From Flavobacterium sandaracinum (GTDB taxonomy: Bacteria; Bacteroidota; Bacteroidia; Flavobacteriales; Flavobacteriaceae): 64,000 bases of DNA. Below, one piece after another: positions 18,963-36,872 of this stretch. Under the pieces are notes generated by a model, which worked only from the letters and a program-made list of their open reading frames with translations, searched no databases and was not told the origin of the DNA. Where the stretch lies: positions 124,001-188,000 of the forward strand of contig NZ_SMFN01000003.1 of NCBI RefSeq assembly GCF_004349135.1. Reading direction: 5' to 3'. Each line of letters starts with the position of its first letter. Position 1 is the first letter of the stretch. The translations under genes and the position numbers were made by a program.

Positions 18963-19135
18963 AGTACGAAAAAATAATATTTGATTCCGATAACAGTACT
19001 GAAACTAGTTGTTCAGTCGGTTTAATTTCCTTTTATTACTATTATTTCATATAGCAAAGGAAATATAAATTGAAATAAACATTATACCCTAATTATCTTT
19101 TTTCCCTCCTTTTTTAATTAATTTTAAAACAATTA

Positions 19136-19148
19136 CAATCGATTACAT
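19136..19148. promoter_or_regulatory. LacI-like palindromic site 1
   Basis: CAATCGATTACAT, with the perfect palindrome AATCGATT and a central CG as in many LacI-family operators. Repeated exactly 307 bp downstream. Confidence 0.4.
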
Positions 19149-19442
19149 TTTAATTTTAATGTTGTAAGTAAATAATGCAATATTAAAATAGACAATTATT
19201 AATCCAAAAAAAAAAGAACAAACTTCAGTCTGTCGTAAATCATATAAATATACAATAATTAAAAATAATTCTTTCTTAACCCTTTTTATTATTGACTTAA
19301 ATTAAAATAATCAAGTAAACAAATTAAAAATTTTATTAGAAATAAAAAAATTAAATCTATATTTTATCCAACATAAAAAAAAGAGAAATCATTATTTTTT
19401 TTATAAATATTTGCAAAATAATAATTTTATTATACATTAGCG

Positions 19443-19455
19443 CAATCGATTACAT
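19443..19455. promoter_or_regulatory. LacI-like palindromic site 2
   Basis: The second exact copy of CAATCGATTACAT ends 12 bp before the pectate lyase ATG. A protein bound there could block transcription or translation initiation. The pair could allow looping. Confidence 0.4.
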
Positions 19456-19467
19456 AAAATTCTAATT

Positions 19468-22020
19468 ATGAAAAAATTATTACTTTTTATTACCATCTTA
19501 TTGGCCTCATTAAACTCTTGGTCAAATGTTACAATTAATGAAACTGGAGGATGGTTAGAGTCTGCTTTTGTGAAATGGGCTCCCGTTTCAGGAGCTGACA
19601 GTTACAATGTTTATTATACAGGTGTTGGTCAAATCGATAAGAAAATCGAAACACAGCTTATTCGCAGTTATGGCAGTTATTTTCGTGCCGATGTATTAGG
19701 ACTAGTTCCAGGAAATTATACCATCACAGTCAAACCTGTAACGGCAAATGTTGAAGGTACAGGGACTACAACTGGTACCATAATCGTTTCAACTCATGAC
19801 CGTACCGGTTTTGCTTTTGAAGGCGGTCGAGTTCCTGGTGGTTACAAAGCAGACGGTTCTCCTAAAACTGGAGCTGTAATTCTTTATATTACACAAAACA
19901 CAAAAAATACAATTTCAATGAACATTACCGGTGCTAGTGTAAATCCTTGTGTTGGCTTGCAAAATATTTTGTATGCAATTAAAAAAGGCAAAGATACTCG
20001 ACCATTTATAATCCGTTTGATAGGTAATATTACTGATATGACTGTAATGGAAGGTGGTGATGTAACTATTGAAAACGCTAACAATGTCAACAGTTATCTA
20101 ACTTTAGAAGGAGTTGGTGATGACGCTGTTGGTAATGGATGGGGAGTACGTCTTAAATCAGCATCAAATATTGAGGTTAGAAATCTTGGATTAATGAACT
20201 GCAACAGCACTGCAGGTGACAACATTGGAATGCAACAAAATAATGACCATATTTGGATTCATAATAACGATATTTTTTACGGTAACGCAGGTAGTGATGC
20301 AGATCAAATTAAAGGAGATGGCGCATTAGACAATAAAACTTCAACTTATTGTACGTTCTCCTACAATCACTTTTGGGACAGCGGAAAAGCGAGTCTTTTA
20401 GGTTTAAGCGAAGGAACAACGGTTGGGTTGTATGTGACTTATCATCATAACTGGTTCGATCACTCAGATTCTCGCCACCCTCGTGTTCGTTACTACTCAG
20501 CACATATTTATAACAATTATTTTGATGGGATTTCTAAATACGGATCAGGTTCTACTAATGGATCGTCTTTGTTTGTAGAAGGTAACTATTTTCGTAATAG
20601 TAAATACCCAATGTTGACCTCTATGCAAGGTACTGATATATGGGATGAAGCAAATCAAAAGAATAATGCTGGCACAATGGGAACTTTCTCTGGTGAAGCC
20701 GGCGGAACTATCAAGGCTTTCAACAATACTTTTGATGCAGATATCGCCACTAATAATATGCGTTTTGTTGCTTATGGCGACCCTAATCCACTCTATAATA
20801 TTGCAGGCAAAATTAGTTCAACCATCGATTTTGATGCTTTTGTACCAACTAATCGTGGTGACCAGGTACCCGCTACTGTTAAATCGTTTTTAGGAGCAAA
20901 TACACACAACAACTTTGATACTGATCCAAATTTATACGTTAAAAATTTAGTCATTGATGAACCTGCAGTAGCCAAAACAAAAGTAATGCAATATTCAGGA
21001 CGGGTTTCGGGTGGAGATTTAAAATGGATATTTAACAATACTGTTGATGATAAGTCATATGCTGTTATTTTGGGACTAAAAAATGCCCTTACTAACTATT
21101 CATCAAATATGGTGGCCATACAAGGCGAAACAGTAGTTGCTGTTAGTAGTCAAACCCTAGCTTCTGGCACAGACAATAACCAAACCGTGGCCTCAAATAC
21201 AGCCATTGAGTCAATGATTTTTAATTGGGGCGGAGATGCAACCGATGCAACTGTGAGCGGGCTACCTTCATCAGGAATTAGTTTTATTAAAGATATTCCA
21301 ACCAAGACAATTACTATATCTGGAACTCCTACTGCTAATGTTTCTTTCTCCATTATTACGAGTGGTACAGCAGGTACACCAGCATCAGCTTCAGGAAGTA
21401 TTTTAATTGCCGGAACTATTCCAAGTGACGAAATTCATAATTTTACAACATCCGGAAAAGTTAGTAATTTTTACACTATTGCAGGAAATATGAATTCCAC
21501 GGCCGGAATGGTTACATATGATGGTTTAACATTAACTGCACGTTTGAAAATAGAGTCTTCAACATCAATTACATATACTACGACAGCAGTGTCAACCCTG
21601 ACTTTAGTATTCGATGCTACTTTTACAGGAAAAGTTAAACTTAACGGAGTATCTTATGCTGCGAATGCTGGAATAGTTACCATTCCATCAGTTCCTTCGG
21701 GATTAAACACTATCCTAAAAACAGATACTGCAAATCTTTTTTATATTAAAACTATATTTAATAATACATTAGGATTAGCACAAAATGCAGAATTATTAAA
21801 ATTGACCTTGTATCCTAACCCCGTAACAAATACTCTATTCTTAAATTCACTCAACCAGAAAATAGAAAAAGTAGAAATTTATAGTATAACAGGGGCTTTA
21901 GTTAAAAGTATAGAAAAAGATGTAGATGCTATCGATGTGAGCAATCTAAACATTGGCAGTTATTTGGTTAAAGTGAGTACAGATCAAGGTACATCCACCA
22001 AAAGAATTATTAAAAAATAA
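19468..22020 (+). CDS. Secreted pectate lyase (PL1 family) with type IX sorting domain
   Basis: An 850-aa protein. It has a signal peptide (MKKLLLFITILLASLNSWS), then an Fn3-like beta domain (about 25-110), then a PL1-type parallel beta-helix lyase (about 115-480). Landmarks of PL1 are NDHIWIHNNDIFYG, TFSYNHFWDSGKASLLG and VTYHHNWFDHSDSRHPRVR, with the Arg-rich catalytic motif at residues 336-341. An Ig-like and jelly-roll-like stretch follows, and residues about 779-850 (LYPNPVTN onward, ending KRIIKK) form a type A T9SS sorting domain. It would cleave de-esterified pectin by beta-elimination at the cell surface or outside. The gene is isolated, with its own control region and terminator, inside a duplicated host gene. 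Confidence 0.93.
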   Translation: MKKLLLFITILLASLNSWSNVTINETGGWLESAFVKWAPVSGADSYNVYYTGVGQIDKKIETQLIRSYGSYFRADVLGLVPGNYTITVKPVTANVEGTGTTTGTIIVSTHDRTGFAFEGGRVPGGYKADGSPKTGAVILYITQNTKNTISMNITGASVNPCVGLQNILYAIKKGKDTRPFIIRLIGNITDMTVMEGGDVTIENANNVNSYLTLEGVGDDAVGNGWGVRLKSASNIEVRNLGLMNCNSTAGDNIGMQQNNDHIWIHNNDIFYGNAGSDADQIKGDGALDNKTSTYCTFSYNHFWDSGKASLLGLSEGTTVGLYVTYHHNWFDHSDSRHPRVRYYSAHIYNNYFDGISKYGSGSTNGSSLFVEGNYFRNSKYPMLTSMQGTDIWDEANQKNNAGTMGTFSGEAGGTIKAFNNTFDADIATNNMRFVAYGDPNPLYNIAGKISSTIDFDAFVPTNRGDQVPATVKSFLGANTHNNFDTDPNLYVKNLVIDEPAVAKTKVMQYSGRVSGGDLKWIFNNTVDDKSYAVILGLKNALTNYSSNMVAIQGETVVAVSSQTLASGTDNNQTVASNTAIESMIFNWGGDATDATVSGLPSSGISFIKDIPTKTITISGTPTANVSFSIITSGTAGTPASASGSILIAGTIPSDEIHNFTTSGKVSNFYTIAGNMNSTAGMVTYDGLTLTARLKIESSTSITYTTTAVSTLTLVFDATFTGKVKLNGVSYAANAGIVTIPSVPSGLNTILKTDTANLFYIKTIFNNTLGLAQNAELLKLTLYPNPVTNTLFLNSLNQKIEKVEIYSITGALVKSIEKDVDAIDVSNLNIGSYLVKVSTDQGTSTKRIIKK

Positions 22021-22042
22021 ATCTGAATAAATTCTAAATACC

Positions 22043-22080
22043 AACCTCGTTTAATGCAATTTAAACGAGGTTTTTTTTAT
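22043..22080 (+). terminator. Intrinsic terminator of the pectate lyase gene
   Basis: A 12-bp perfect stem (AACCTCGTTTAA at 22043-22054, TTAAACGAGGTT at 22061-22072) with a 6-nt loop and a run of Ts. Confidence 0.92.
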
Positions 22081-22277
22081 AAACATTTATTGGTTCTGTT
22101 GAAATTTACCAAAATATGTACTTATGTCTAAAAACGTTTTTACAAAATTCCTCTTCAAAGAAGTTCAAAACTCCTATATTTACTTCCAATAAACTACAAC
22201 AAGAATCTCTTTGCGATTTTTAAACGAATTGATTTTTTCGGGTAATTTAACAAATTTGCATTATCTGTTCCAAAATT

Positions 22278-23793: not shown

Positions 23794-24162
23794 ATGAATA
23801 GTGCTAAAAAAATAGTTCTCGCTGAAGATAACTCGATGCTTTCGATGTTGCTTAAATTCAAGTTAGAAAAAGAAGGATATTCCCTTTTTATAGCGGAGAA
23901 TGGCAAGAAAACAATTGAATTAATTGAAGAACATAATCCGGAATTAATATTAACAGACATTATGATGCCTTTTGTAAGCGGATTAGAAGTAATCAGTCAT
24001 GTAAGAAATAAATTAAATCTACTTACTCCTATTGTTGTTTTTTCAGCCGCAGGACAAGAGAAAATTGTTCTTAAAGCATTTGATCTAGGCGCTACTGATT
24101 TCATGAGTAAACCTTTGAGTCCAAACGAACTAGTACTCAGGGTAAAACGCTTATTGCCTTAA
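23794..24162 (+). CDS. Stand-alone receiver-domain response regulator, cassette 1
   Basis: A 122-aa protein consisting only of a CheY-like receiver. The acidic pocket is AEDN near residue 10-13, the phospho-acceptor Asp is in LTDIMMP, the switch Ser in VFSAAG and the conserved Lys in MSKPLSP. The C-terminus PNELVLRVKRLLP is almost identical to that of the receiver at 36501. There is no output domain and no histidine kinase nearby, so it must act by protein contact or in a phosphorelay. It opens the cassette and lies 31 bp before the HEAT protein gene. I infer that it controls the synthase complex, possibly by binding the HEAT protein; this is untested. Confidence 0.9.
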   Translation: MNSAKKIVLAEDNSMLSMLLKFKLEKEGYSLFIAENGKKTIELIEEHNPELILTDIMMPFVSGLEVISHVRNKLNLLTPIVVFSAAGQEKIVLKAFDLGATDFMSKPLSPNELVLRVKRLLP

Positions 24163-24193
24163 TAGTACGGATGAATTACCCCTGAGTTTAACT

Positions 24194-25297
24194 ATGAATA
24201 CCTCCATTTTTTTGATTGACTATTTTAATGATTCACCACCTATCATTCAAGCAGCTTGGATAATAAGTGGTCTGTTTTTCATATTAATTAGTGGCCTAAT
24301 TCTTTATTTGAAATATTTAAGAAGCTATCTAAGAAAAAAAGAAAAAATCACTGCTGCGTATGAGCAAGAATACGAATATGCTCTTATCACTTATCTTTAT
24401 GCTGGAAATGAAGAAGAAGCAATCAGCTTAGAACAACAAGCGATTATTGATTTATTAAAAAATTATGCAAAAGATCCTTTTAAAAGAAAAATTTTAATTG
24501 CAGTTTTGGTCAAGTTGAAAAATGAAATCTCAGGTGAAGTTGCTGAGTCTATCCAATATCTTTATTATCAAACGGAACTTGTAGATTATGCTTTATCTCG
24601 ATTAAGTCATAAAAAATGGTTTGTGATTGCCAAAGGAATCCGAGAATTAAAACAATTTCAGATAAAGGAAGCTTATGATCAAGTAATAATTCACCTAAAT
24701 CATCCTAGACCAGAAGTCCGAAAGGAGATGCAATTGTATATGGTCAATTTATTTGATTTTGAAGGACTTACTTTTTTAGATTTATTAGAAACACCACTTT
24801 CAGAATGGGATCAGATTCAACTATTAGAAGTACTGCAAAAATTAGAAAATCAAAATATTTCTTGCAGCACCTCTTGGCTGCAATCTTCTAATGACTCAGT
24901 GATTCTTTTTGCGCTAAAATTAGCCAAAATTTACAATCAATTAGAAGGAAAAAACGAGATCATGCAGTTGTTGCACCATATCAATAAAGAAGTAAGGCTA
25001 GAGGCCATTGATGTATTGAGCTATTTAAACGTATTAGAAGCCAAAGAAATTTTAAAATTGGATTTACAAAAACGCAGTGAAGAAGAGCAGATCGCTTTTT
25101 TTAAAATGATGGAAAATTTATACGAAAGTAATGACGAATCCTTTATAATGAAATATATCCATGATGACGTTTTTGAAATTAAGGTTGTAGCCTTGAAAAT
25201 TTTAAAAATAGTCAATAGAGAAAAATTTAGTACTTTAAAAAGCGAATCCTCTGAAGGTTCATTTCTGAAAATCGTTAATTTTATAGAAAAAAATTAA
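24194..25297 (+). CDS. Single-pass membrane protein with HEAT-like repeats, cassette 1
   Basis: A 367-aa protein. One membrane helix lies at about 18-42 (WIISGLFFILISGLILYL), followed by a basic stretch and then roughly 300 residues of alpha-helical repeats of HEAT/PBS-lyase character, for example HPRPEVRKEMQLYMVNLF and HINKEVRLEAIDVLSYL. The helical array should face the cytosol. Its stop codon is 2 bp from the start of the GT2 gene, so the two are translated as a pair. A second HEAT/GT2 pair occurs at 30466. HEAT arrays bind proteins, so I infer a scaffold or regulatory subunit of the glycosyltransferase, with the receiver protein as a possible ligand. Confidence 0.8.
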   Translation: MNTSIFLIDYFNDSPPIIQAAWIISGLFFILISGLILYLKYLRSYLRKKEKITAAYEQEYEYALITYLYAGNEEEAISLEQQAIIDLLKNYAKDPFKRKILIAVLVKLKNEISGEVAESIQYLYYQTELVDYALSRLSHKKWFVIAKGIRELKQFQIKEAYDQVIIHLNHPRPEVRKEMQLYMVNLFDFEGLTFLDLLETPLSEWDQIQLLEVLQKLENQNISCSTSWLQSSNDSVILFALKLAKIYNQLEGKNEIMQLLHHINKEVRLEAIDVLSYLNVLEAKEILKLDLQKRSEEEQIAFFKMMENLYESNDESFIMKYIHDDVFEIKVVALKILKIVNREKFSTLKSESSEGSFLKIVNFIEKN

Positions 25298-25299
25298 GC

Positions 25300-26730
25300 A
25301 TGGGAGATTCTATAATCCAAACTACAATTGAATTATTTCACTATCTATTTTTAATTTATAGTGTGAGTGCTATAGCATCTTACCTTTTACTTGCGGCAAT
25401 TTCCGCAATAGAGACTATTGAGTACAAGCGTAAAAACAGTTATGTTAATTACAAAGAAATAATGTCTTCAAATAGCGCTCCTTCCATTTCAATTATAGCT
25501 CCCGCATACAATGAAAGTTTAAATATTGTTGAAAACGTACGTTCTTTATTGTCTAACCACTATGTAAACTATGACGTAATTATAATAAATGACGGTAGTA
25601 AAGACGATAGCTTAGAGAAATTAATTGAAGTGTATAATCTAGTTAAGATAGACTACCTAATCAATGAACAAATCCCAACCCAACCTCTTAGAAACGGAAT
25701 TTACAAATCAACTAATCCTGCATTTGAAAAACTAATTATTGTCGATAAAGAAAATGGAGGAAAAGCCGACGCTTTAAACATGGGACTTAATATTAGCAAC
25801 AGTGAATATGTAGCTTGTATAGATGTAGATTGTCTCCTATTAGAAGACTCCCTTCAAAAAATGATTAAACCATTTCTTGAAATAACGGATAGAAAAGTTA
25901 TTGCTGCTGGAGGAGTAATTAGAATTGCGAATTCCTGTGTAGTAAAAGATGGTAAATTACACGATGTGAACTTTCCCAAAAAACTAATTGAGCAAGGGCA
26001 AATTCTAGAATACATTCGTGCTTTTTTATTAGGAAGAATGGCATGGAGCAGACTGAATGGCTTGTTAGTTATTTCAGGCGCTTTTGGTTTATTTGATAAA
26101 AGAATTGCGATCAAGGTTGGCGGTTATGATAAAAATACTGTAGGTGAAGATATGGAACTTGTGGTTAGGATGAGAGCCTATATGGAAGAACAGAACAAAA
26201 GATATAAAGTAGCTTATATTCCAGATCCGCTTTGTTGGACAGAAGCGCCTGACAACTATAAAATATTTATTTCTCAAAGAAACAGATGGACTCGAGGAAC
26301 CATCGAAACCTTAAGAAAACATCGCAAAATTGGATTCAATCCAAAATATAAGATCTTGGGATTACTGAGTTATCCCTATTGGTTTTTTTTCGAAAGAATG
26401 GCTCCAGTAATAGAATTTGTAGGTATACTCTACTTTGGGATTCTCATTATATTCGATAAAATCAGATGGGATTATGCATTTGCTTTGATTATTTTAGCCT
26501 ATATATTTACGGTTTTCTTTTCTTTGATAGCATTAATTACAGAGGAGTTAACCTATCATCAATACAAAAAGAAAGGAACTGGTATTCGTTTATTACAAAT
26601 TGCTTTCTTAGAACCTTTTGTTAATCACCCTTTCATTTTATATGCCGCAATTAGAGGAAATTTAGATTACTATTTTAACAAAAAAAAGAAATGGGGAGAG
26701 ATGACCCGAAAAGGAATGACCAAAGTTTAA
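25300..26730 (+). CDS. Processive family 2 glycosyltransferase (PgaC/HAS-like), cassette 1
   Basis: A 476-aa inner-membrane polysaccharide synthase. An N-terminal helix (about 12-32) precedes a GT-A domain: UDP-sugar Asp98 in NDGSKDD, the DxD metal site D175-V-D177, the GED catalytic motif (Glu283-Asp284), and the processivity motif QRNRW (Gln326 to Trp330). Three to four membrane helices follow (about 360-450). All residues expected of an active processive synthase are present. Members of this group make poly-GlcNAc, hyaluronan, cellulose or similar beta-linked chains and push them through the membrane; the sugar cannot be assigned. It is tightly coupled to the upstream HEAT gene, and a broken outer-membrane gene follows. 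Confidence 0.92.
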   Translation: MGDSIIQTTIELFHYLFLIYSVSAIASYLLLAAISAIETIEYKRKNSYVNYKEIMSSNSAPSISIIAPAYNESLNIVENVRSLLSNHYVNYDVIIINDGSKDDSLEKLIEVYNLVKIDYLINEQIPTQPLRNGIYKSTNPAFEKLIIVDKENGGKADALNMGLNISNSEYVACIDVDCLLLEDSLQKMIKPFLEITDRKVIAAGGVIRIANSCVVKDGKLHDVNFPKKLIEQGQILEYIRAFLLGRMAWSRLNGLLVISGAFGLFDKRIAIKVGGYDKNTVGEDMELVVRMRAYMEEQNKRYKVAYIPDPLCWTEAPDNYKIFISQRNRWTRGTIETLRKHRKIGFNPKYKILGLLSYPYWFFFERMAPVIEFVGILYFGILIIFDKIRWDYAFALIILAYIFTVFFSLIALITEELTYHQYKKKGTGIRLLQIAFLEPFVNHPFILYAAIRGNLDYYFNKKKKWGEMTRKGMTKV

Positions 26731-26755
26731 ACATTAATAATATAGATCTAAAAAA

Positions 26756-27054
26756 GTGGAAATTAGAAAATTGATTTCTATAATTATTTTAAAATTAATT
26801 GTTCTACTGATTTTTTTATCCGCCTTTCCAATGTTTGTACAAGAAAAAGAATTTAACAGAGATCCATACAGCGCCCTCAAGACTGCATGTGTTTTAGCGT
26901 ACAACTAGCAACGAAACAGTTAGTACACTCAATTAGGTATCACGCATTAGGAAGAACTATTTAATACTGGTGATTATTATTGGGTTTATTTAGTGGCCCT
27001 GACCTAGTATGTGTGTTTAAGATAAATTTGCTTGTGACACGAAATTTGGACTAT
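26756..27054 (+). pseudogene. Decayed YaiO-like outer-membrane protein gene
   Basis: Just after the GT2 gene, where cassette 2 has its YaiO-like gene, a GTG-initiated frame encodes 50 residues: a signal-peptide-like start (MEIRKLISIIILKLIVLLIF if GTG is read as Met), then a segment ending FNRDPYSALKTACVLAYN and a TAG at 26906-26908. That segment resembles the start of the TPR domain of YaiO-type proteins. Beyond the stop, out-of-frame fragments reading ALGRT and then TGDYYWVYL suggest further remnants. Position, order and content support a lost beta-barrel gene; the exact 3' limit is uncertain. Confidence 0.5.
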
Positions 27055-27150
27055 AAATCAACCGTAACAAGTAAAAAAATTATATTTTAGCCTTGGAAAA
27101 GCCAAGAAAGAAACTACAAATAATAAAGTATATTTCAATAAAAAATATTT

Positions 27151-29703
27151 ATGAAAAAAAACTACGCAAAAGTACTATTGATAAATCTTATCTTAATATG
27201 TACAACTTCGTTTGGACAAAATACTAATAAATATCCTTTTGCTACAAACAAGGACTTTTTAACCATTTGGAATGGAGAATCTTACGTACCTTTTTTTATA
27301 AAGGGAACTAATTTAGGCGTTAGTATTCCTGGCACATTTCCCGGAGAATTGGCTCCTACATACGAACAATATATGCATTGGTTTGGAGAAATAAAAGAAG
27401 CGGGTTTCAATTCATTTAGAATTTACACTTTGCATTATCCTCGTTTCTATAAAGCTTTGAGTGATTATAATAACTTACATCCTGACAACCCTTTACTTTT
27501 TATGCAGGGAGTTTGGCTTGACGAGGAAGCCCATAATTATAATAATGACTTGAATTTTTTGACTAATACTTTCCAGCTAGAAATCCAAGACAATATAAAA
27601 TGTTTGCATGGGAACAACACAATTCCAGAGCGATTCGGAAAAGCTTCTGGTGAATATACAACTGACGTTTCAAAATGGTGTCTGGCATACATTATTGGGA
27701 GAGAAGTTTTCCCGCAAGAGGTAGCAACAACTAATCTTTTGAATCCTAGCAACACCCAATTTACTGGTAAACATCTTAAAATAACGAATGCTACACCTGC
27801 TGAAGAGTGGGAAACTAGAATGATGAATTTCGTCCTTGAATTTGAACAAAATACTTTTGACACACAAAGACCTGTTAGTTTTTCAAGTTGGCCCACGTTA
27901 GACCCATTGAAGCATACTGGCGTAGTAAATGACCCCGAAGATAGTGAGCAAATTGATTTATCTAAAATTGAAATTGTAAATGCTCCAGCGGGGATTTTCT
28001 TGAGCTATCATGCCTATCCGTATTATCCTGATTTTATTGGTGATCAAGCCTCTTATCAAAGTACTTCTGATAATTTTGGCCCAAACAGTTATAAAGCCTA
28101 TTTAAAAGAACTTAAATCTCATTATACCAAATTCCCTTTAATTATTGCCGAATATGGAGTTCCTAGTAGTTGGACAACGGCACATTACACCTCATCTGGT
28201 ATGAATCACGGTGGATTTGACGAATACAACCAGGGACATGCAAATATGAGAATTTTGCAATCAATTTTCGATACTCAATGTGGTGGTGGTATCCAATTTT
28301 CACTTATGGACGAATGGTTCAAAAGAACTTGGATTGCAGATGCTTTGGATTATACTCCTGAAAGTAGAGTGTTATGGCAAAACCTTAATTCTGCTGAACA
28401 AAACTTTGGTTTGTTGGGCTTCGAAAAAGCCTCTCAATTTAAAACTTTGAAAGACAACAGTGCAGATGCCGTAACCAAAATAAGCGCAGATGCGAACCTC
28501 AAATTTTTGGAGATCAAGCTCGATTTAAAAGAACCTTTTAAAACCATTGATGAAATTTGGGTAGCCTTAGATACTTATGACACAACTCTGGGAGAATCTT
28601 TGCTTCCAAATGGAGCTACCATACCCAACAGAAGTGAATTTGCTTTGAAAATAACCAATCATTCTGCCGAATTATACGTTACCGAAGCTTATGATACTTT
28701 TGGTATTTGGCATAATGTTTCAACAGCAAACCAATTGTATCGTTCAACAGCCACTAATGGTAAACCTTGGAATATAGTTAGAGTTAAAAACAATGGAACT
28801 AACTCGAATGCGGATATCCAATACATAGGAAATTTACAAGTAAATTATGATTTTCAACCCTATTCTTCTAACGACGGAGTAACTATTGACGATAAATCAA
28901 TTCATATTCGTTTGCCTTGGAACTATATCAATTTTGTAGCTCCTAATACTAAAACCGTATTGAATGACATCAAAGAAACCCCGTCGAAAGAAGAAGCAAT
29001 TACTGACGGAATCAAAATAAATGCTTACTATAAGCAAAATTGGTTTCAGCACGACAGTAGATTTATTTGGAATGATTGGAATGCGAATGATTTAAAAAAT
29101 ATTTCAGAGACAAGAAAAATATCTTTTTACGTGATGCAGGACAATTTACAGAAATTTAACACAAGTGCCATCAGTGTAATTGATGAGTACACTTTTGATG
29201 ATGGTAAGTATCCTGCCTTTGTCAATGCTCCTTTCGGCTTGCTCAAGAACGACTTTGACTTAGACGGAACAGAAAAAATGACGGTTGTTTTTAAAAATCC
29301 TAAAAGTGGAATTTTAAATCTACAAACCGATGGCTCATTTGAATATTCTCCTATTGTTAATTTCGTAGGCACAGATACTTTTCAATATGCAATTTACGAC
29401 GGTTATAGTTTATCTACACCTACTACAGTGGTACTAAATGTAACAGAACCTAACCTAAATAATAACGCTGTTCAAACACAAATTAATATATATCCAAATC
29501 CAGTAGCTGAAATTTTAACTGTGGAAGTACCTACAAAATTTGATGAGTTGATGATTTTTGATGCCACTGGAAAAAAAATAAATTCATATCCTAATTTCGA
29601 TAGAACTGCAAACATAAATTTAGGCAATCTACCCACTGGTATCTATTATCTTGTAGGCATCATAGACGGAAAAACAGCTACAGCTAAAATCATCAAGAAG
29701 TAA
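27151..29703 (+). CDS. Secreted clan GH-A-like glycosidase with T9SS sorting domain
   Basis: An 850-aa protein with a signal peptide (MKKNYAKVLLINLILICTTSFGQ has its cut near residue 23). A (beta/alpha)8-type catalytic region occupies about 35-440. The probable acid/base is Glu185 in IIGREVFP and the probable nucleophile Glu334 in IIAEYGVPSS, the layout of clan GH-A. A beta-rich domain (about 450-650) and a cadherin-like/Ig-like module (about 690-765, with GTDTFQYAIYDG) follow, and residues about 779-850 (YPNPVAE onward) form a T9SS type A sorting domain. It ends cassette 1 and could trim or modify the exported polymer at the surface, or attack an outside glycan. The GH family is unassigned. 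Confidence 0.75.
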   Translation: MKKNYAKVLLINLILICTTSFGQNTNKYPFATNKDFLTIWNGESYVPFFIKGTNLGVSIPGTFPGELAPTYEQYMHWFGEIKEAGFNSFRIYTLHYPRFYKALSDYNNLHPDNPLLFMQGVWLDEEAHNYNNDLNFLTNTFQLEIQDNIKCLHGNNTIPERFGKASGEYTTDVSKWCLAYIIGREVFPQEVATTNLLNPSNTQFTGKHLKITNATPAEEWETRMMNFVLEFEQNTFDTQRPVSFSSWPTLDPLKHTGVVNDPEDSEQIDLSKIEIVNAPAGIFLSYHAYPYYPDFIGDQASYQSTSDNFGPNSYKAYLKELKSHYTKFPLIIAEYGVPSSWTTAHYTSSGMNHGGFDEYNQGHANMRILQSIFDTQCGGGIQFSLMDEWFKRTWIADALDYTPESRVLWQNLNSAEQNFGLLGFEKASQFKTLKDNSADAVTKISADANLKFLEIKLDLKEPFKTIDEIWVALDTYDTTLGESLLPNGATIPNRSEFALKITNHSAELYVTEAYDTFGIWHNVSTANQLYRSTATNGKPWNIVRVKNNGTNSNADIQYIGNLQVNYDFQPYSSNDGVTIDDKSIHIRLPWNYINFVAPNTKTVLNDIKETPSKEEAITDGIKINAYYKQNWFQHDSRFIWNDWNANDLKNISETRKISFYVMQDNLQKFNTSAISVIDEYTFDDGKYPAFVNAPFGLLKNDFDLDGTEKMTVVFKNPKSGILNLQTDGSFEYSPIVNFVGTDTFQYAIYDGYSLSTPTTVVLNVTEPNLNNNAVQTQINIYPNPVAEILTVEVPTKFDELMIFDATGKKINSYPNFDRTANINLGNLPTGIYYLVGIIDGKTATAKIIKK

Positions 29704-29790
29704 GTTTTTATTTAGCAAAAAAAAGGGGCACACACCTTGTACATAAATTTCGGAAGCTTTTTTAGACTGTTTCTTGCCTCGAAAAAAAGT

Positions 29791-29833
29791 TAACAACAAT
29801 GAGCTCGATATAATATCGAGCTCATTGTTGTTA
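29791..29833. repeat. 43-bp perfect palindrome (21-bp arms)
   Basis: The arms TAACAACAATGAGCTCGATA plus T and their exact complement are separated by one base. On the minus strand the hairpin is followed by TTAAC-free spacing of a few bases and then a run of Ts (29783-29789), so it may be a terminator for a minus-strand transcript. On the plus strand it lies 87 bp after the glycosidase stop without a T tract. Confidence 0.8.
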
Positions 29834-30085
29834 AATCCAATTTAATTCATTCTTCCTCAAATAGACTCGAATTGAAACCATCAACATCTTAAGTTGAAAT
29901 ATCTTTAAAACAACATGTTAAAATGGAAATTTTGACTTGCTTATTGTCTACCCTAAATAGAAGATCTTTTTATCATAAGAAATAAACATACAAGCTCAAA
30001 AGAACTAATAAAAAGGATATAAAATCGTTACCAATTTGACACCCTGTCTATTTTTAATCTTACTAATGCACTTTAACTATACATT

Positions 30086-30256
30086 TTAAGATTGCAACAC
30101 TTTTGGCGCAATAAATTGAGAAATATTGATAGGATTTAAAACATATCTTTTGTTTGGTGAGATTACGTGCTTTACGGGATTTAATTGCTTTACATCGGAA
30201 AGTTTTTTTTTAGCTATCAATAATCCATAACTTTGTAAGCAAATAAAGTAAAACAT
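30086..30256 (-). CDS. Possible 56-aa ORF or C-terminal gene remnant
   Basis: A minus-strand frame from ATG (30256) to TAA (30086). It encodes 56 residues with natural-looking composition, including SYGLLIAKKKLSDVKQ and a C-terminus reading PINISQFIAPKVLQS. An in-frame stop lies two codons before the ATG. It begins with hydrophobic residues but has no proper signal peptide. I recognise no family. It could be the 3' end of a lost gene, consistent with the hairpin terminator downstream on the same strand, or a small protein. Confidence 0.3.
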   Translation of the reverse strand: MFYFICLQSYGLLIAKKKLSDVKQLNPVKHVISPNKRYVLNPINISQFIAPKVLQS

Positions 30257-30465
30257 GTCTTAAAAATCATTTAATGATTTAACGTTTTAATTTCGTCCTT
30301 GTTTATACATTTTCTTTGTCCATTTCTAAACTTTAAAATCAAGAAAAAATTAATTATTATCATAATCATCAACAGTTATAAAAACGCGCACATTCCGCCC
30401 ATGAAAACTAAAAACTTTATAATTTCTATGTTAATAGTAATAAATTTATAATACCAGATCATCAA

Positions 30466-31539
30466 ATGCAACCAATCATCGACTTGTTCTTTTTACTACT
30501 AAAAAATTATATTATACCATTTCTTTTATTATTAACTGTACTTTTGATAATTTTCCTGTTGTTGAAACGAATTCACTTTGAATATACCATGCCAATTCGA
30601 GCGGCCCTAAGTGACAAAGTAGAGATTTTTTTGACTGAAATGATTCTATCAAATCACAACGATGAAAAATTAAAAAAAGAATTATTGCAATTCAAAAAAG
30701 AAGTTCCATTTCATAAATCTTGGTGTAAAGAAATGATTATTAATGCAATGATCCAATTTAAAAGAAATTTAAAAGGAAGAGCAACTGAGCAGATAAATAC
30801 ATTTTATCAGTTCTTAGAACTAGACAAATATTCGGAAAGCTTGATAAGTAATTATAGAAGCTTTTATAAATGTGCAGGCTTTTATCATTTTCAAGCTTTA
30901 GATTATAAAAAAGGAAGTATATTGATAAAGCCTTATCTAAAAAACTCTAATATTGTAATTCGGTCTAATGCTTATATGGCTTACATCTCTTTAACCGAAA
31001 ATTACATGAAAGGTTTAATAAATCAATCTGCTATTATTTCACATCTGAACTTGATCAAAATTATGGATATTCTACATGAAAAAAAAATACCATTACCTAA
31101 AAATATTGATAAGTGGATCCAAGCCGATAACAATTCAGTTGTTAAATTAGGTTTAAAAATAATGGTTTTCTTCAATTATAGAAATAGAGTTAAAGAAATT
31201 ATAGCTTTGACTAAAAGGGAAGACAACAGTGTAAAAATAGAGGCGATTAAAACAATCAAAGAACTATTTTTATTTGAAGCAAAAGATGAATTGACACTGC
31301 TGTTTGATAACGTAGCTTTGCAAGTTCAGTTAGAAATTCTAGAAACATTAATGGTAATAGGTGATGTAAATTTAATTCCATTTTTAGAAAATATAATTCA
31401 GAAAACAACCAATAAGGATCTTAAATTAAGAGCCGTAAAATGCCTAAACGAAATAAGCAACACTCAATTAGAGATTTTAGCTACAAAAGATTTTGATATC
31501 AATAAAATGATGCAACACGCCAGAGAAATATACCTATAA
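30466..31539 (+). CDS. Single-pass membrane protein with HEAT-like repeats, cassette 2
   Basis: A 357-aa counterpart of the cassette 1 HEAT protein. A strongly hydrophobic N-terminal helix (about 7-34) is followed by helical repeats, for example LIKPYLKNSNIVIRSNAYMA and KREDNSVKIEAIKTIKELFL, and a C-terminal repeat LKLRAVKCLNEISN. Similarity to the cassette 1 protein is clear in plan but low in sequence, so the duplication is old or the two were acquired separately. Its TAA overlaps the ATG of the GT2 gene by one base (TAATG at 31537-31541), a strong sign of translational coupling and of a 1:1 partnership with the synthase. The function is inferred from context. Confidence 0.8.
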   Translation: MQPIIDLFFLLLKNYIIPFLLLLTVLLIIFLLLKRIHFEYTMPIRAALSDKVEIFLTEMILSNHNDEKLKKELLQFKKEVPFHKSWCKEMIINAMIQFKRNLKGRATEQINTFYQFLELDKYSESLISNYRSFYKCAGFYHFQALDYKKGSILIKPYLKNSNIVIRSNAYMAYISLTENYMKGLINQSAIISHLNLIKIMDILHEKKIPLPKNIDKWIQADNNSVVKLGLKIMVFFNYRNRVKEIIALTKREDNSVKIEAIKTIKELFLFEAKDELTLLFDNVALQVQLEILETLMVIGDVNLIPFLENIIQKTTNKDLKLRAVKCLNEISNTQLEILATKDFDINKMMQHAREIYL

Positions 31540-32981
31540 TGAGAAATCAGATTGCACATCAATTCTATTACGTTTTTGAAATATTTATTTCAACTTTCTC
31601 ACTTACCTATATTTTATTTTACATTTTTCTATCCATTCTTTCCTATTATGCCATATTAAAACATCTAAGGTATCAAAAATATATTTCGGAGGATATTCTT
31701 ATCCGATCAAATCATTTGCTAGGTGTTTCTGTAATTGCTCCAGCCTTTAATGAGGGTGTAAGTATTGTTTATAATGTAAAATCATTATTGTCATTAACAT
31801 ATCCCAAATATGAAGTCATTATCGTCAATGATGGTAGCACAGATGATACTCTAATGAAGTTAATTACTGAATTTGAGTTGGTTAAAGTTGATTTTTATTA
31901 TCAGGAAAAGATTGTGACCAAACCAATTCGTGGACATTACAAATCGACTAATCCCATTTATTCAAAACTAATGGTTGTGGATAAAGAAAATGGAAAAAGT
32001 AAAGCGGATGGATCGAATGCAGGAATCAACTCATCTCAATATCCTTTGTTTTTGTGCACAGATGTCGATTGCATTCTGAAAAGGGACACAATATTAAAAT
32101 TAGCGAAACCTTTCATGGAAAATGAAAAGCGTGTAATTGCAACAGGCGCTGGCATCCGAATTTCAAATTCCTGCGAAGTTAAAGATGGTTTTTTACACAA
32201 AGTCCACTTCCCCGAAGACTGGTATCCTAGATTTCAGGAATTAGAATATGTACGTTCTTTCCTTTTTGGCAGAATGGCCTGGAGCCAAATCAATGGTTTG
32301 CTATTAGTTTCTGGAGGTTTGGGTATGTTTGATACAGAAATCGCCATCAAAGTAGGTGGATATTGGCATAAATCGTTAGGTGAAGATATGGAACTGATTA
32401 CCCGAATGCGAAAATACATGCATGAAAATAAACAGAAATTTTTAATTAAATATATTCCTGAATCTCTTTGCTGGACAGAAGTACCTGATACTAGAGAAAT
32501 ATTAATCAGACAAAGAACTAGATGGGCACGTGGACTAGTACAAACGCTTTTCTTACATCGAAAGATGTTTTTAAACCCAAAATATGGTAAAACAGCATTT
32601 TTGATTCTACCCTTTTTCTTTGTGTTTGAATTCCTAGTACCAATAATAGAATTAATTGGAGTTGTAATACTAACTATAGGTTTTTTTAATCATTCCATCA
32701 ATGTTGAATTTTTACTAACTGTAGCTTTGTTTGTGTATTTATTTTATTTTTTAATTACGCTAATATCTATTTTAATAGACGATTTATTGTACAAAAGCTA
32801 CGCTAATTACAAAGAACTATTAATATTAATTTTTATGGCCATCATTGAACCATTTGTATATCATCCTCTAAACGTATATGCGTCTTTAAAGGGATATTGG
32901 TTTTTTATTAGACAAACAGAACAAAAATGGGGCGTAATGATTCGAAAAGGATTTGCAACAACTGAAAAAGTAACATCATGA
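31539..32981 (+). CDS. Processive family 2 glycosyltransferase, cassette 2
   Basis: A 480-aa synthase paralogous to the one at 25300. The catalytic residues sit at matching positions: Asp98 (NDGSTDD), D175-V-D177, Glu282-Asp283 in the GED motif, and QRTRW at 325-329. The DKENGKSKADGSNAG loop carries a small insertion relative to the paralogue's DKENGGKADALN. N-terminal and C-terminal membrane helices frame the GT-A domain. It overlaps the HEAT gene by 1 bp and the YaiO gene by 4 bp. The polymer is unknown; the family supports a beta-linked homopolymer exported as it is made. Confidence 0.92.
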   Translation: MRNQIAHQFYYVFEIFISTFSLTYILFYIFLSILSYYAILKHLRYQKYISEDILIRSNHLLGVSVIAPAFNEGVSIVYNVKSLLSLTYPKYEVIIVNDGSTDDTLMKLITEFELVKVDFYYQEKIVTKPIRGHYKSTNPIYSKLMVVDKENGKSKADGSNAGINSSQYPLFLCTDVDCILKRDTILKLAKPFMENEKRVIATGAGIRISNSCEVKDGFLHKVHFPEDWYPRFQELEYVRSFLFGRMAWSQINGLLLVSGGLGMFDTEIAIKVGGYWHKSLGEDMELITRMRKYMHENKQKFLIKYIPESLCWTEVPDTREILIRQRTRWARGLVQTLFLHRKMFLNPKYGKTAFLILPFFFVFEFLVPIIELIGVVILTIGFFNHSINVEFLLTVALFVYLFYFLITLISILIDDLLYKSYANYKELLILIFMAIIEPFVYHPLNVYASLKGYWFFIRQTEQKWGVMIRKGFATTEKVTS

Positions 32982-34249
32982 TTCTAAACAAAATTATAAA
33001 AATCGGTAGTATTTTCATCTATCTATTATTTCTATGCAATGCTGACGCAACAGCTCAAAAAATTAATACTGATAGTCTCCTCACGGTCATAATAAAAGAC
33101 ATGCAAACCAATAAAAACTATCAAAAAAATATTGAAAGAGCTTTGTTAGGAAAGAAAATTGCTCCTAATTATTTGGATTATTATTTAATCCTTGGAAGAA
33201 ACTATGATTTTTTGCAAAAAAAAGATAGTGCCCGGTATTACTACAACTACTACATCCAAAAAAATCCAGATAACGAGGATACATTCAACTACTTAATTAA
33301 TCTTGAACTAGAGGATAAAAAATTTAACGATGCCGAAAATATAATAGACAAAGCCCTTACAGCTTACCCCAATAATAAAAACTTTGAACAAAAGAAACTC
33401 TCTTTGTACCAATTACAGAAGGATAGCAAAAAAGAATATGAATATTTAAAAATATTACAAGCAAAATACCCAAATGATAATGCCAATACGCAACTCATTC
33501 TGCAACTAGAATCAAAACGTAAATCAGATCGATTGGGGCTCAATTATAGCTACACTACATTTGACCGAAAAGGTTATGGACCATGGCATTTAATGGGTTT
33601 TCAGTATATAAGGGAGCGACAATGGGGTTCATTGATTGGAAGTATTAATTATGCGGATCGATTATCATCTGGACAAAGCATTGCTGATGGGATTCAATAT
33701 GAAGCCGAATCCTATTTTTTCACCGGAAAAAACAATTATTCGTTAGTAAGTGCTGCATTCAGTAATGATCTTGTTTTTCCAAAAATAAGATTGGGCTATT
33801 CATTTTATCAAAATTTTAAAAAGGGCTGGGAAGGAGACTTAGGGTTGCGCTATTTAAAGACACAGGATGGGACAGAATTTAATACAATTGTTGTTGGAAT
33901 AGGCAAATACATTGGATCCTCTTGGATAAATTTACGAACTTTCATTCAAGCAGATAAAGAGAATTTTTACCCGGCAATAACCTTGACCATGCGGTATTAT
34001 TTTGAAACACGATTTGATTACATAAGTTTGACTTCAGGATATGGATCTTCCCCAGAAGACCGAACAACTTTAGGACAGTTCAAAGAAAGAGTTTCATTAG
34101 ATTCCTATCGACTAGGTGCCGGCTATTTCAGAATGTTTAACAACCATTATCTCATGGGACTTCAGGTCAACTACAATGATCAAGAATATGTCCCTAACTT
34201 GACACAAAATGAATTGGAATTATCATTAATGTTCCAATATAAATTTTAA
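32978..34249 (+). CDS. YaiO-like outer-membrane beta-barrel with N-terminal TPR domain
   Basis: A 423-aa protein. It has a signal peptide (cut after about residue 27, ATAQ), then TPR-like helical repeats (about 30-180, e.g. DNEDTFNYLINLELEDKKFNDAENIIDKAL shortened to its core DKKFNDAENIIDKAL). From about 185 onward alternating strands with aromatic ends (GLNYSYTTFD, WHLMGFQYI, LELSLMFQYKF) form a YaiO/PgaA-like barrel of about 16 strands, ending in Phe as outer-membrane proteins do. It starts inside the GT2 gene (ATGA overlap). Plan and position match PgaA or BcsC-type exit channels, in which periplasmic TPRs guide the polymer to the pore; that role is inferred. Confidence 0.82.
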   Translation: MILNKIIKIGSIFIYLLFLCNADATAQKINTDSLLTVIIKDMQTNKNYQKNIERALLGKKIAPNYLDYYLILGRNYDFLQKKDSARYYYNYYIQKNPDNEDTFNYLINLELEDKKFNDAENIIDKALTAYPNNKNFEQKKLSLYQLQKDSKKEYEYLKILQAKYPNDNANTQLILQLESKRKSDRLGLNYSYTTFDRKGYGPWHLMGFQYIRERQWGSLIGSINYADRLSSGQSIADGIQYEAESYFFTGKNNYSLVSAAFSNDLVFPKIRLGYSFYQNFKKGWEGDLGLRYLKTQDGTEFNTIVVGIGKYIGSSWINLRTFIQADKENFYPAITLTMRYYFETRFDYISLTSGYGSSPEDRTTLGQFKERVSLDSYRLGAGYFRMFNNHYLMGLQVNYNDQEYVPNLTQNELELSLMFQYKF

Positions 34250-34252
34250 AAT

Positions 34253-36490
34253 ATGTCCAATCAGCGCTTGACCTTAATTTACATTTTGTTTTTTTTGGTT
34301 CTTGGTAACTATAAAACTATGGCTCAGTCTGAAATCATCATCGATAATAACTCGGAGGTAGTAAATACGATCCAATTCTTTAATGACAACGCAAAACCAG
34401 CTGCTATAATTTTAAAAAAATATTTAGATAAAAGCTTTTCTAATCCTTTTGTCATTCAAAGTTATGCAGATCATTCAGCCAAAAAAATTGCGCAAATACA
34501 TCTAGAAGTTACAAATTCAAAAAATATAAAAGATGAAAATAGTTTTAGCATAAAAAGCGATAACAACACTATCTTTTTGGCTGCAACCAATGAAAAACTA
34601 CTTCGTTATGCCGTTTATACTTTACTTGAAAATTGGGGTTTTAGAAAATTCACTGCAACAGACCTGTATATCCCCAAATTAAAAAGAATAGTTTTTCCAA
34701 AAAACACAACCCAACTACATACTCCTTCATTTGAATATCGAGTGATACTCTATCCAGATGCTTTTGATGAAGATTTTCGCGATTGGCATAAATTAGACTG
34801 GCATTTGGACGATTTCAGCACATGGGGACATTCCTTTCATACCATTTTGCCACCAAAAGAATATTTTAAAACAAATCCTGAATTTTTTGCTTTATATGAA
34901 GGGATAAGAAGACCCGAATCAATATGTATGACTAATGAAACTGCAGTAAAAAATGTCATAAAAAAAATAAACCAAATTATTTTGGATAATCCCAAAGCAT
35001 CATTCATTTCAGTCAGTCAAAATGACGATGCGGTTTATTGTGAATGTAGCAAATGCAAATCACTCAATGAAAATCATGGAGGACCACAAGGCTCGCTCTA
35101 TTTCTTTATGAATAAAATTGCAAAACATTTTCCTAAAACTAAAATTGTAACATTAGCATACCAGCACACTTACAAAGCACCGATAAATTTAAAAATAGAG
35201 CCTAACATTTACACTTTATTTTGCCCGATAGAATTGAATCGAGGAAAGTCAATCGTAAAAGATCCAACCAGCAAATCCTTTGTCAAAATAATGCAAGACT
35301 GGAGCAAAACGGCTTCTCATTTGTATTTATGGGATTATACCGTTCAATTTTCGAATTACTTATCCCCATTTCCAAACATTCATACTTTTTCTGATAATTA
35401 CAAACTATTCAAAAAAAACAATGTCAAAGGATTATTTGCACAAGGTTATGCAGATGTGCCTGGAGATTTTTCGGAATTAAGGCAATATCTTTTAGCCAAA
35501 TTATTATGGAATACTGAACTAGATATTGAAGCTAATACCGATGATTTTTTAAGAGGCTTTTATGGAAATGCAGCTACTTCTATTAAAGAATATTTAAATC
35601 TATTGTCCACAAACCAAGAAAATTCAAATCGCGCATTAGAGATTTACTCCGGACCAATCCAAAGTAGGAATACTTTTCTAACTCCAGAAGCGATGGATCG
35701 TTACGACCAACTATTAGATGAGGCTTCAATGGCAGTAAACGAAGATCCCATTTTATATTCCCGAATAAAAAAATTACGCCTTACATTAGAATATGCATTT
35801 TTTGAGCAATCTAAATTTTACGGCAAAGAACAACACGGTATGTTTAACGTCAATGAAAATGGCGATAAAGAAGTCAAACCTAGACTCAATGAAAGAGTAT
35901 CTAATTTTGCTGAAGCATGTAATGAATTCGGAATTTATGAACTGAGCGAAGAAGGATTAACTCCCGACCAATATTATAAAAACTGGCTCGAAATCACGAA
36001 AAACACCGCTACACATATTGGAGAAAATCTTGCAGTTAATTTACTTACACCACCATCAACAGAATATTCAGGGAAAGGAAGTGCTGGACTAGTTGATGGA
36101 ATAAATGGCCATAGAGATTACAATATTAATTGGATTGGTTGGTACGGAAACGATCCTGAAATTGAAATAATTACAAATAATTTAGATTTTAATCAAATAA
36201 AAATTCATTTTTTAGATAATCAAAGAAATTGGATTTTTCTCCCCCAAAAAATTACACTACTAGGATATAAAAATAAACAATGGAACTTGATAACTGAAAA
36301 AAAATTAGTAGCTTTAGCTGATATTTCCGAAGTACAAAGCAATGAAATTACTATCACAGATGATAGTTTTAGAAGGTTTGAAAAAATAAAATTAATAATA
36401 CAAAATCAAGAAAACTTACCGAGTTGGCGAAAACGAAAAAATAAAAAACCAATGGTAATGATTGATGAAATAGAACTTTACAACAAATAA
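34253..36490 (+). CDS. DUF4838 family secreted protein, possible polysaccharide-modifying enzyme
   Basis: A 745-aa protein with a signal peptide (MSNQRLTLIYILFFLVLGNY then KTMAQ). A small alpha/beta N-terminal domain (about 30-150), like those preceding alpha-glucuronidase or hexosaminidase barrels, leads to the DUF4838 barrel. Its marks are SVSQNDDAVYCECSKCKS (Cys263, 265, 268) and VTLAYQHTYKAP. The C-terminal 140 residues look like a carbohydrate-binding jelly roll of the F5/8 type C kind. It lies 3 bp after the YaiO gene. No enzyme activity is established for DUF4838 that I know of; the fold suggests glycoside cleavage, making it a possible counterpart of PgaB's hydrolase domain. Confidence 0.8.
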   Translation: MSNQRLTLIYILFFLVLGNYKTMAQSEIIIDNNSEVVNTIQFFNDNAKPAAIILKKYLDKSFSNPFVIQSYADHSAKKIAQIHLEVTNSKNIKDENSFSIKSDNNTIFLAATNEKLLRYAVYTLLENWGFRKFTATDLYIPKLKRIVFPKNTTQLHTPSFEYRVILYPDAFDEDFRDWHKLDWHLDDFSTWGHSFHTILPPKEYFKTNPEFFALYEGIRRPESICMTNETAVKNVIKKINQIILDNPKASFISVSQNDDAVYCECSKCKSLNENHGGPQGSLYFFMNKIAKHFPKTKIVTLAYQHTYKAPINLKIEPNIYTLFCPIELNRGKSIVKDPTSKSFVKIMQDWSKTASHLYLWDYTVQFSNYLSPFPNIHTFSDNYKLFKKNNVKGLFAQGYADVPGDFSELRQYLLAKLLWNTELDIEANTDDFLRGFYGNAATSIKEYLNLLSTNQENSNRALEIYSGPIQSRNTFLTPEAMDRYDQLLDEASMAVNEDPILYSRIKKLRLTLEYAFFEQSKFYGKEQHGMFNVNENGDKEVKPRLNERVSNFAEACNEFGIYELSEEGLTPDQYYKNWLEITKNTATHIGENLAVNLLTPPSTEYSGKGSAGLVDGINGHRDYNINWIGWYGNDPEIEIITNNLDFNQIKIHFLDNQRNWIFLPQKITLLGYKNKQWNLITEKKLVALADISEVQSNEITITDDSFRRFEKIKLIIQNQENLPSWRKRKNKKPMVMIDEIELYNK

Positions 36491-36500
36491 AATAGCTCCA

Positions 36501-36872
36501 ATGAACAGTGATAAAAAAATTCTAATTATTGAAGATGATGAGTTAATGATTAAAATCCTCACATTCATCTTAAATAAGGAAGGATATCAGTTGATCGTTA
36601 TTAGAGATGGTCTTAGTGCTACCGAACAATTAGGTACGATTCATCCCAACATGGTAATCACTGACCTACTTCTGCCCTACAAGTCTGGACTTGAAGTAAT
36701 TAGTCATGTTAAAGAAAATTTTGAAGCAATACCAATAATTGTTTTATCGGCGTTGGGCGAAGAAGAACATTCTGTGAGCGAAGCATTTAAGCTTGGTGCT
36801 GATGATTTCATTGCAAAGCCTTTTAATCCTAACGAATTAGTATTACGAGTAAAGCGATTATTACCGCACTAA
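36501..36872 (+). CDS. Stand-alone receiver-domain response regulator, cassette 2
   Basis: A 123-aa CheY-like receiver: acidic pair in IIEDDELM, phospho-Asp in ITDLLLP, Ser in VLSALGEEE, Lys in IAKPFNP. The tail FNPNELVLRVKRLLPH nearly repeats that of the cassette 1 receiver, suggesting the same binding surface or partner. It lies 10 bp after the DUF4838 gene and closes the operon, whereas the cassette 1 receiver opens its operon. No kinase is encoded nearby. An output by phosphorylation-dependent protein contact is inferred. Confidence 0.9.
   Translation: MNSDKKILIIEDDELMIKILTFILNKEGYQLIVIRDGLSATEQLGTIHPNMVITDLLLPYKSGLEVISHVKENFEAIPIIVLSALGEEEHSVSEAFKLGADDFIAKPFNPNELVLRVKRLLPH

Follow-up and report, generated by a model that had tools for sequence, protein, structure and literature searches.

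The genome of Flavobacterium sandaracinum (4.03 Mb) contains two neighbouring sets of genes that each combine a family 2 glycosyltransferase (GT2) with a HEAT-repeat membrane protein and a stand-alone receiver (REC), raising the question of what such sets produce and how they are controlled. Both lie in a stretch of 64,000 nucleotides (contig NZ_SMFN01000003.1, positions 124,001 to 188,000 of the forward strand), referred to here as the window and numbered from its first nucleotide. A first-pass annotation had read them as two linked cassettes for synthase-dependent polysaccharide export. Our analysis places both in a widespread, apparently undescribed kind of polysaccharide locus that is conserved in Bacteroidota. 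On balance, we favour the view that both represent a variant of synthase-dependent polysaccharide secretion, conserved in this phylum, whose synthase is switched by a HEAT protein and a phospho-receiver.

The shared core and its conservation

All nine open reading frames (ORFs) that had been annotated were recovered on the forward strand, as were the overlaps and gaps of cassette 2. Cassette 1 opens with the 122-residue receiver REC1 (23794..24162; PF00072, 88 bits), followed by HEAT1 (24194..25297) and the predicted polysaccharide synthase GT2_1 (25300..26730). Cassette 2 consists of HEAT2 (30466..31539), a second predicted synthase, GT2_2 (31539..32981), a tetratricopeptide-repeat (TPR) protein with a YaiO-type outer-membrane barrel (32978..34249), a secreted, glycosidase-like DUF4838 protein (34253..36490) and the receiver REC2 (36501..36872; PF00072, 90 bits), with a 1-bp overlap, a 4-bp overlap, a 3-bp gap and a 10-bp gap between successive genes. 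In the Pfam scan, both response regulators and the GT2 families of both synthases were above cut-off, as were the YaiO barrel (PF19413, 152 bits versus a cut-off of 23.9) and DUF4838 (PF16126, 310 versus 26.6 bits), which bears out these component labels. The barrel protein also exceeded the cut-off of TIGR04390 (108.1 versus 32 bits), placing it in the YaiO family. Its TPR_19 match (19 versus 25 bits) and the HEAT_2 matches of the two HEAT proteins (24.3 and 19.0 versus 27.7 bits) were below cut-off. Against the PDB, the DUF4838 protein matched beta-hexosaminidases weakly (E = 8e-5 and 3e-4).

The corresponding genes of the two cassettes are paralogues: the synthases are 45% identical, the receivers 50% and the HEAT proteins 22% (E = 2e-10), and HEAT2 stands as a row in the HEAT profile. 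The source genome contains exactly two full members of this GT2 subfamily, the remaining matches being partial and below 32 bits, and the cassette 2 barrel is its single PF19413 match. The annotated core of a HEAT protein and a GT2 with complete catalytic motifs was confirmed, since D98, D175xD177, E283-D284 and Q326xxR329W330 were invariant in all 18 aligned members; with these motifs and transmembrane helices, the GT2s qualify at the sequence level as inner-membrane synthases. In the receivers, D12, the phospho-acceptor D55, S/T84 and K106 were kept in 69, 70, 71 and 71 of 71 aligned neighbours, respectively.

The AlphaFold2 model of HEAT1 (predicted local distance difference test score, pLDDT, 91.1; predicted template modelling score, pTM, 0.80) shows a 55-residue helix that includes the single, N-terminal membrane span, followed by a HEAT-type solenoid. 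A transmembrane helix was present in 55/55 aligned HEAT proteins, and Lys and Arg were richer on the HEAT side of it in 49, equal in one and oppositely distributed in five. Because of this bias, we place the solenoid in the cytosol, the compartment in which the receiver and the GT2 catalytic domain are expected. Structural matches of the solenoid (Z 13-15) were at the level expected for helical repeats and carry no functional information. In four loci from other Flavobacteriaceae genera (L108, L109, L117 and L119), the HEAT protein carries approximately 330-500 extra C-terminal residues with acidic, repeat-like stretches.

The two GT2s were used to search 84,980 species genomes; this confirmed at least 532 relatives, of which the best 80 were kept, and took no account of neighbouring genes. 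By title, these belong to Bacteroidota apart from two metagenome bins, L073 (labelled Beijerinckiaceae) and L025 (labelled Chlorobiota), both probably mislabelled. Once five GT2 genes with less than 1.2 kb upstream had been excluded, 80 remained, the window's own pair and second cassettes among them; 78 of these had a HEAT gene directly upstream, which overlapped the GT2 gene or was at most 6 bp away in 70 cases. The misses were L071, where a 238-residue protein in that position gave a weaker HEAT match, and L080. Sixty-five loci had 5 kb or more on either side; in these, genes within six of the GT2 included HEAT in 64, YaiO in 63, a receiver in 62, a sulfatase-like protein in 53, a hybrid kinase in 31, a conserved protein termed c12 in 11, DUF4838 in five and CotH in three, as counted from length-limited clusters and score thresholds of our choosing. 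The usual order in Flavobacteriaceae is REC-HEAT-GT2-sulfatase-like-YaiO, in part of them preceded by a hybrid kinase, and Bacteroidales-type loci are mostly REC-YaiO-HEAT-GT2. Our mechanical ORF picker can mask genes behind longer false ORFs; it did so for HEAT in L153 and for the receivers of L177, L178 and L186, which were revealed by tblastn. Loosely iterated profiles drifted and were discarded, because sulfatase-like proteins picked up GT2 and YaiO scores through GT2-sulfatase fusions and shared TPRs.

The picture was similar in 395 genomes drawn separately from the phylum. HEAT was detected (E <= 1e-10) in 64 genomes and GT2 (E <= 1e-60) in 94; since this search scores few candidates per genome, its absences are not firm. 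Sixty of the 64 HEAT genomes also held the GT2 (Fisher p = 3e-41, not corrected for kinship), and the GT2 lay directly downstream of 67 of 74 HEAT matches. When 20 loci were fetched, mostly from GT2 genomes lacking a HEAT match, HEAT was found upstream in 16 (the other four being L155, L162, L165 and L166). Seven of these matched the HEAT profile, eight were recognized through Pfam HEAT_2 in an upstream protein of 361-374 residues (seven of the eight above cut-off), and one was L153. The first-pass annotation had staked its reading on the HEAT/GT2/YaiO/receiver grouping recurring in other genomes, and the neighbourhood searches found it conserved across Bacteroidota.

Three further neighbours were observed in subsets of loci. 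The c12 protein (approximately 390 residues; e.g. L062:9976-11148) lies near YaiO and GT2; the member scanned matched neither Pfam nor NCBIfam, and c12 showed no profile similarity to the window's glycosidase. In L063, L065 and L083, a CotH-kinase family protein, a candidate tailoring module, lies between YaiO and HEAT. In the deep family f18 (L161:9637-10617 and L171:4712-5689), the gene immediately before HEAT-GT2 encodes a nucleotide-sugar epimerase/dehydratase, which hints at the sugar that is used.

Among the best matches of our literature searches, no account of a HEAT/GT2/YaiO/receiver locus was found. The available portions of PMC8481357 and PMC10936215 do not mention HEAT, YaiO or glycosyl, and those of PMC8461298 and PMC7112194 do not mention Bacteroid or HEAT.

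Known systems and proposed control of the synthase

The first-pass annotation missed that the usual fifth gene of these loci encodes a sulfatase-fold, phosphotransferase-like membrane protein, that a hybrid kinase gene lies close by in roughly half of the relatives, and that cassette 1 is broken. The sulfatase-like protein has five N-terminal transmembrane helices (3/3 sequences examined), a PF00884 domain and a C-terminal TPR part. Formylglycine sulfatases carry the nucleophile motif C/S-x-P-x-R. In the sulfatase-like partner, the nucleophile column lies within G-R-T/S-F and was T in 53, S in seven and C in none of 60 sequences. We take this to be a phosphotransferase pattern, and the identity of a formylglycine sulfatase was rejected. 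All 37 genomes with the protein (E <= 1e-80) held the GT2, and 35 of its 39 genes lay within 6 kb of it. It is fused to the GT2 in one ORF in eight of the 80 loci (L024, L060, L067, L079, L080, L085, L086 and L088) and likewise in loci L176-L178 of the window's own genus. In these helices, fold and nucleophile it resembles LtaS and OpgB, and its best NCBIfam matches are to LtaS and phosphoglycerol transferases (48.3, 40.6 and 40.4 bits). It differs from them in scoring far below the family cut-offs, in its TPR part and in its fusion to the GT2. The source genome has no orthologue of it and contains one 31% identical relative elsewhere.

Several known systems share parts with the cassettes. Cellulose synthase (CelA/BcsA) was rejected, as the GT2s scored 40.6 and 24.6 bits against a cut-off of 699.1 and the genome has no PilZ. 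The likeness to the poly-N-acetylglucosamine system PgaABCD includes a TPR and barrel exporter, a periplasmic carbohydrate enzyme and PgaC_IcaA as the nearest GT2 profile; the identity with PgaC/IcaA was rejected at 130.8 and 113.5 bits versus a cut-off of 422.3. PgaA, PgaB and PgaD were not among the NCBIfam matches listed for ten window proteins, and PgaA matched weakly to the TPR part of relatives' YaiO and sulfatase-like proteins (15.8 and 28.1 bits). The E. coli cluster yaiO-yaiX-yaiP-yaiS also has a YaiO barrel near a GT2, and YaiP is 26% identical to GT2_1 over 238 columns (E = 4e-13). However, it has the acyltransferase yaiX (a fragment) and the deacetylase yaiS where the window system has HEAT, REC and a sulfatase-like protein, and E. 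coli YaiO, which is 257 residues and all barrel, gave no significant BLASTP match to the window's YaiO (E = 0.36).

Type II bacterial cellulose (Bcs) secretion, as described in PMC11470070, offers a parallel in layout. It combines an inner-membrane GT2 synthase, an outer-membrane barrel (BcsC) that has repeats in the periplasm, a hydrolase (BcsZ) and a cytosolic accessory protein, BcsE, with degenerate REC and GGDEF domains. The phosphoethanolamine transferase BcsG, comparable to the relatives' sulfatase-like partner, is recruited by the synthase BcsA (PMC11470070), which the fusion of sulfatase-like protein and GT2 parallels. The window system differs in having a YaiO barrel in place of BcsC, and HEAT and a phosphorylatable REC in place of BcsE/RQ in a genome without PilZ or GGDEF. 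Synthase-dependent export had been proposed for both cassettes. The anatomy fits this, with a processive-type GT2, a TPR and YaiO barrel and a carbohydrate enzyme, but cassette 1 is incomplete.

The annotation had further proposed that HEAT and receiver proteins replace PilZ/PgaD-type partners. A genome search found neither GGDEF nor PilZ in the source genome, which agrees with HEAT and receiver standing in for partners that depend on cyclic di-GMP (c-di-GMP), although some deep relatives carry c-di-GMP enzymes at the locus; the replacement depends on lineage. In a draw of 208 genomes (taken to be G000-G207), GGDEF occurred in 113, none of them in the window's genus, family or order. Of the 53 that were GT2-positive, 36 lacked GGDEF, and at least nine of the other 17 had a GGDEF gene within approximately 3 kb of the GT2. 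A domain scan of three of these revealed a REC-GGDEF-REC protein in the receiver's place in L153 and L167, both of genus g54, and a GAF-PAS-GGDEF-EAL protein followed by REC, HEAT and GT2 in L158, from another family. At this position of the locus, then, both receivers and c-di-GMP enzymes are found, and we regard this as the strongest indirect support for control of the synthase by the receiver. The two hybrid kinases scanned (L021 and L058) both have the architecture PAS-HisKA-HATPase-REC-Hpt.

PMC7112194 names an inner-membrane synthase, a c-di-GMP-binding regulatory domain or co-polymerase and a periplasmic modification enzyme among the features of synthase-dependent systems. For the second of these, the source genome has neither GGDEF nor PilZ, and HEAT and REC are candidate substitutes; our claim is therefore that the locus works like synthase-dependent secretion, not that it is a strict member of that class. 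Candidates for the modification enzyme are DUF4838 and a clan GH-A-like protein in the window, and the sulfatase-fold protein in relatives.

From these parts, a mechanism may be outlined. The GT2 would polymerise a glycan from nucleotide sugar in the cytosol, and its own membrane helices would carry the glycan across; an enzyme encoded nearby, periplasmic or secreted, would trim or decorate the glycan, and the TPR/YaiO barrel would release it from the cell. The decorating enzyme would be an LtaS/OpgB-like phosphotransferase in most relatives, DUF4838 in cassette 2 and an acquired glycosidase in cassette 1. HEAT would be anchored in the membrane by its single span, and its cytosolic solenoid would hold the synthase and offer the receiver a docking face; phosphorylation of the receiver would switch synthesis on or off. 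The phosphate may come from the nearby Hpt-containing hybrid kinase in many relatives and from a remote kinase in the source genome. HEAT and receiver would then do the job that PilZ or PgaD performs with c-di-GMP elsewhere. A bolder proposal, to which we give slightly less than an even chance, is that these loci form a c-di-GMP-free class in which a hybrid-kinase phosphorelay leads to a stand-alone receiver that docks on the HEAT adaptor and so gates the GT2. The locus would then preserve the trace of a shift between control by second messenger and control by direct phosphorelay, with tailoring modules (fused phosphotransferase, DUF4838, clan GH-A-like glycosidase) swapped around a fixed core. 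A receiver with a HEAT adaptor would be a concrete and genetically simple candidate answer to how matrix synthesis is gated, and the locus points to a phosphotransferase-decorated polymer, its synthase and decorating enzyme being fused in several genera.

Divergent histories of the two cassettes

In F. omnivorum (L009), in L172 and in F. fryxellicola (L010), the locus reads REC-HEAT-GT2-sulfatase-YaiO and then HEAT-GT2-YaiO-DUF4838. The window is 88% identical to L009 through the end of GT2_1, and identity resumes at 76% from HEAT2. Cassette 1 is neither contiguous nor complete: the 420 bp after GT2_1 contain a YaiO pseudogene remnant (26772..27022, forward strand) and the sulfatase-like partner is gone. 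The remnant joins the gene start to the last 38 or so codons and has in-frame stops; it matched the start of the YaiO gene of relative L011 by blastn (72% over 148 bp, E = 3e-16) and residues of approximately 18-48 and 384-421 of relatives' YaiO by tblastn. No sulfatase-like remnant was detected at E <= 0.01 in either gap between GT2_1 and HEAT2. The ratios of nonsynonymous to synonymous substitution rates (dN/dS) against L172 were 0.048 for REC1, 0.213 for HEAT1 and 0.065 for GT2_1, and these low values indicate purifying selection. Cassette 1 is therefore broken, its exporter reduced to a pseudogene and its sulfatase-like gene lost, with REC-HEAT-GT2 intact and constrained. If active, it would have to borrow the YaiO of cassette 2, because this is the sole YaiO remaining in the genome.

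Cassette 2 is complete in the source genome, and HEAT-GT2-YaiO-DUF4838-REC is complete in L172, L173, L174 and L175 as well, with a receiver in the position equivalent to REC2. Against L172, dS exceeded 1.2 in the four computable genes of cassette 2 (HEAT2 was not computable) and was 0.36-0.49 in cassette 1. The two halves therefore have different histories, which suggests that cassette 2 was replaced or transferred.

The remaining gene of cassette 1, GH850 (27151..29703), encodes an 850-residue protein that had been labelled glycosidase-like. Pfam gave cadherin/Big_9 domains and a type IX secretion system (T9SS) tail and no catalytic match, and no PDB match was found by sequence. Clan GH-A enzymes are (beta/alpha)8 barrels with catalytic Glu residues after strands 4 and 7. 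A weak model of the protein (mean pLDDT 58.4) shows this barrel order, with E164 after beta-4 and E313 at beta-7 (A6 numbering), and both residues were invariant in 9/9 members. Foldseek ranked GH157, GH2 and GH158 first for this model, at template modelling scores of only about 0.3, and a marginal GH113 Pfam match was seen in just one of the nine members. The protein is not an orphan: its 621-residue catalytic part alone found homologues of 47-50% identity in eight other genomes of the 395-genome sample, in which it was absent from other members of the window's genus and family (a ninth match, G035, was partial, E = 3e-4). The whole protein as query matched 166/199 genomes, among the matches listed all but its own in the cadherin/T9SS part, and an apparent homologue in L074 was rejected because its match was the T9SS tail only.

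Seven of the eight glycosidase genomes (not G223) held this GT2, versus 94 of 395 overall (p = 2e-4, kinship ignored), and none of the eight held the sulfatase-like partner. In three genomes of genus g95, the glycosidase gene sits by YaiO, with HEAT-GT2 beside them and oppositely oriented, and a receiver was labelled in two of the three. With moderate confidence, we take GH850 to be an acquired accessory hydrolase for this class of polymer. Between glycosidase and YaiO, two g95 loci (L202:8022-8654 and L203:7989-8639) encode a protein of 210-216 residues with an HD motif seen by eye.

Alternative readings and neighbouring features

Several points weigh against a HEAT/receiver switch on a synthase-dependent secretion system. 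The GT2 scores far below the cut-off of its nearest NCBIfam profile, PgaC; export through YaiO is inferred from family and position; and genera with a c-di-GMP enzyme at the receiver's place are few. No receiver lay within six genes in three of the 65 loci and none was labelled in L176, an upstream HEAT passed the strict threshold for only 67 of 107 strong GT2 matches in the 395 genomes, and the glycosidase shares the locus in one genus only, lying elsewhere in the genome in five of eight.

It is unlikely, in our estimate, that cassette 1 is merely a decaying remnant on which an unrelated glycosidase gene landed by chance. The YaiO pseudogene, the lost sulfatase-like gene, and a glycosidase that begins 420 bp past GT2_1, is restricted as described above and mostly lies away from the GT2 elsewhere all agree with decay, but the constraint on REC1, HEAT1 and GT2_1 does not, nor does the presence of this GT2 in seven of the eight other glycosidase genomes, three of which, all of one genus, share the locus. 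Slightly more doubtful is that HEAT and receiver position the synthase at the cell pole, septum or gliding tracks, HEAT being a localisation scaffold, rather than switch catalysis. SPOR domains bind septal peptidoglycan, and weak SPOR matches occur in the segment before the transmembrane helix of some HEAT proteins (L064, L087 and L123), several others having the long acidic extensions noted above; however, these matches were below the Pfam cut-off (16.9-17.5 versus 21 bits) and limited to three members, and REC-GGDEF-REC at the receiver's place in one deep genus points to control of activity. We consider it a little less probable still that the locus makes a glycan of the periplasm or cell envelope (an osmoregulated glucan or a lipid-linked one) bearing phosphoglycerol or phosphoethanolamine rather than an exported matrix. 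The LtaS-type matches of the sulfatase-like partner would suit such a product, whereas a TPR/YaiO barrel accompanies the synthase in 63/65 loci and a T9SS-exported glycosidase and DUF4838 adjoin it in the window.

Upstream of cassette 1, positions 19468-22020 encode an 850-residue protein that by eye is T9SS-tailed and pectate-lyase-like. It falls within a stretch (18917-22273, between an ABC transporter gene and the gene at 22278) to which neither F. omnivorum L009 nor F. fryxellicola L010 has a match. The Rfam scan gave no match, the sigma-70 promoter scan yielded fewer sites than shuffled sequences (50 versus 67.7), and TTTG/TAnnTTTG promoter-motif matches in the region lay within genes or past REC2. 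The one notable terminator-like site in the scan was a 20-pair hairpin (29790..29834) just after the glycosidase gene and before cassette 2, which is terminator-like on the minus strand only.

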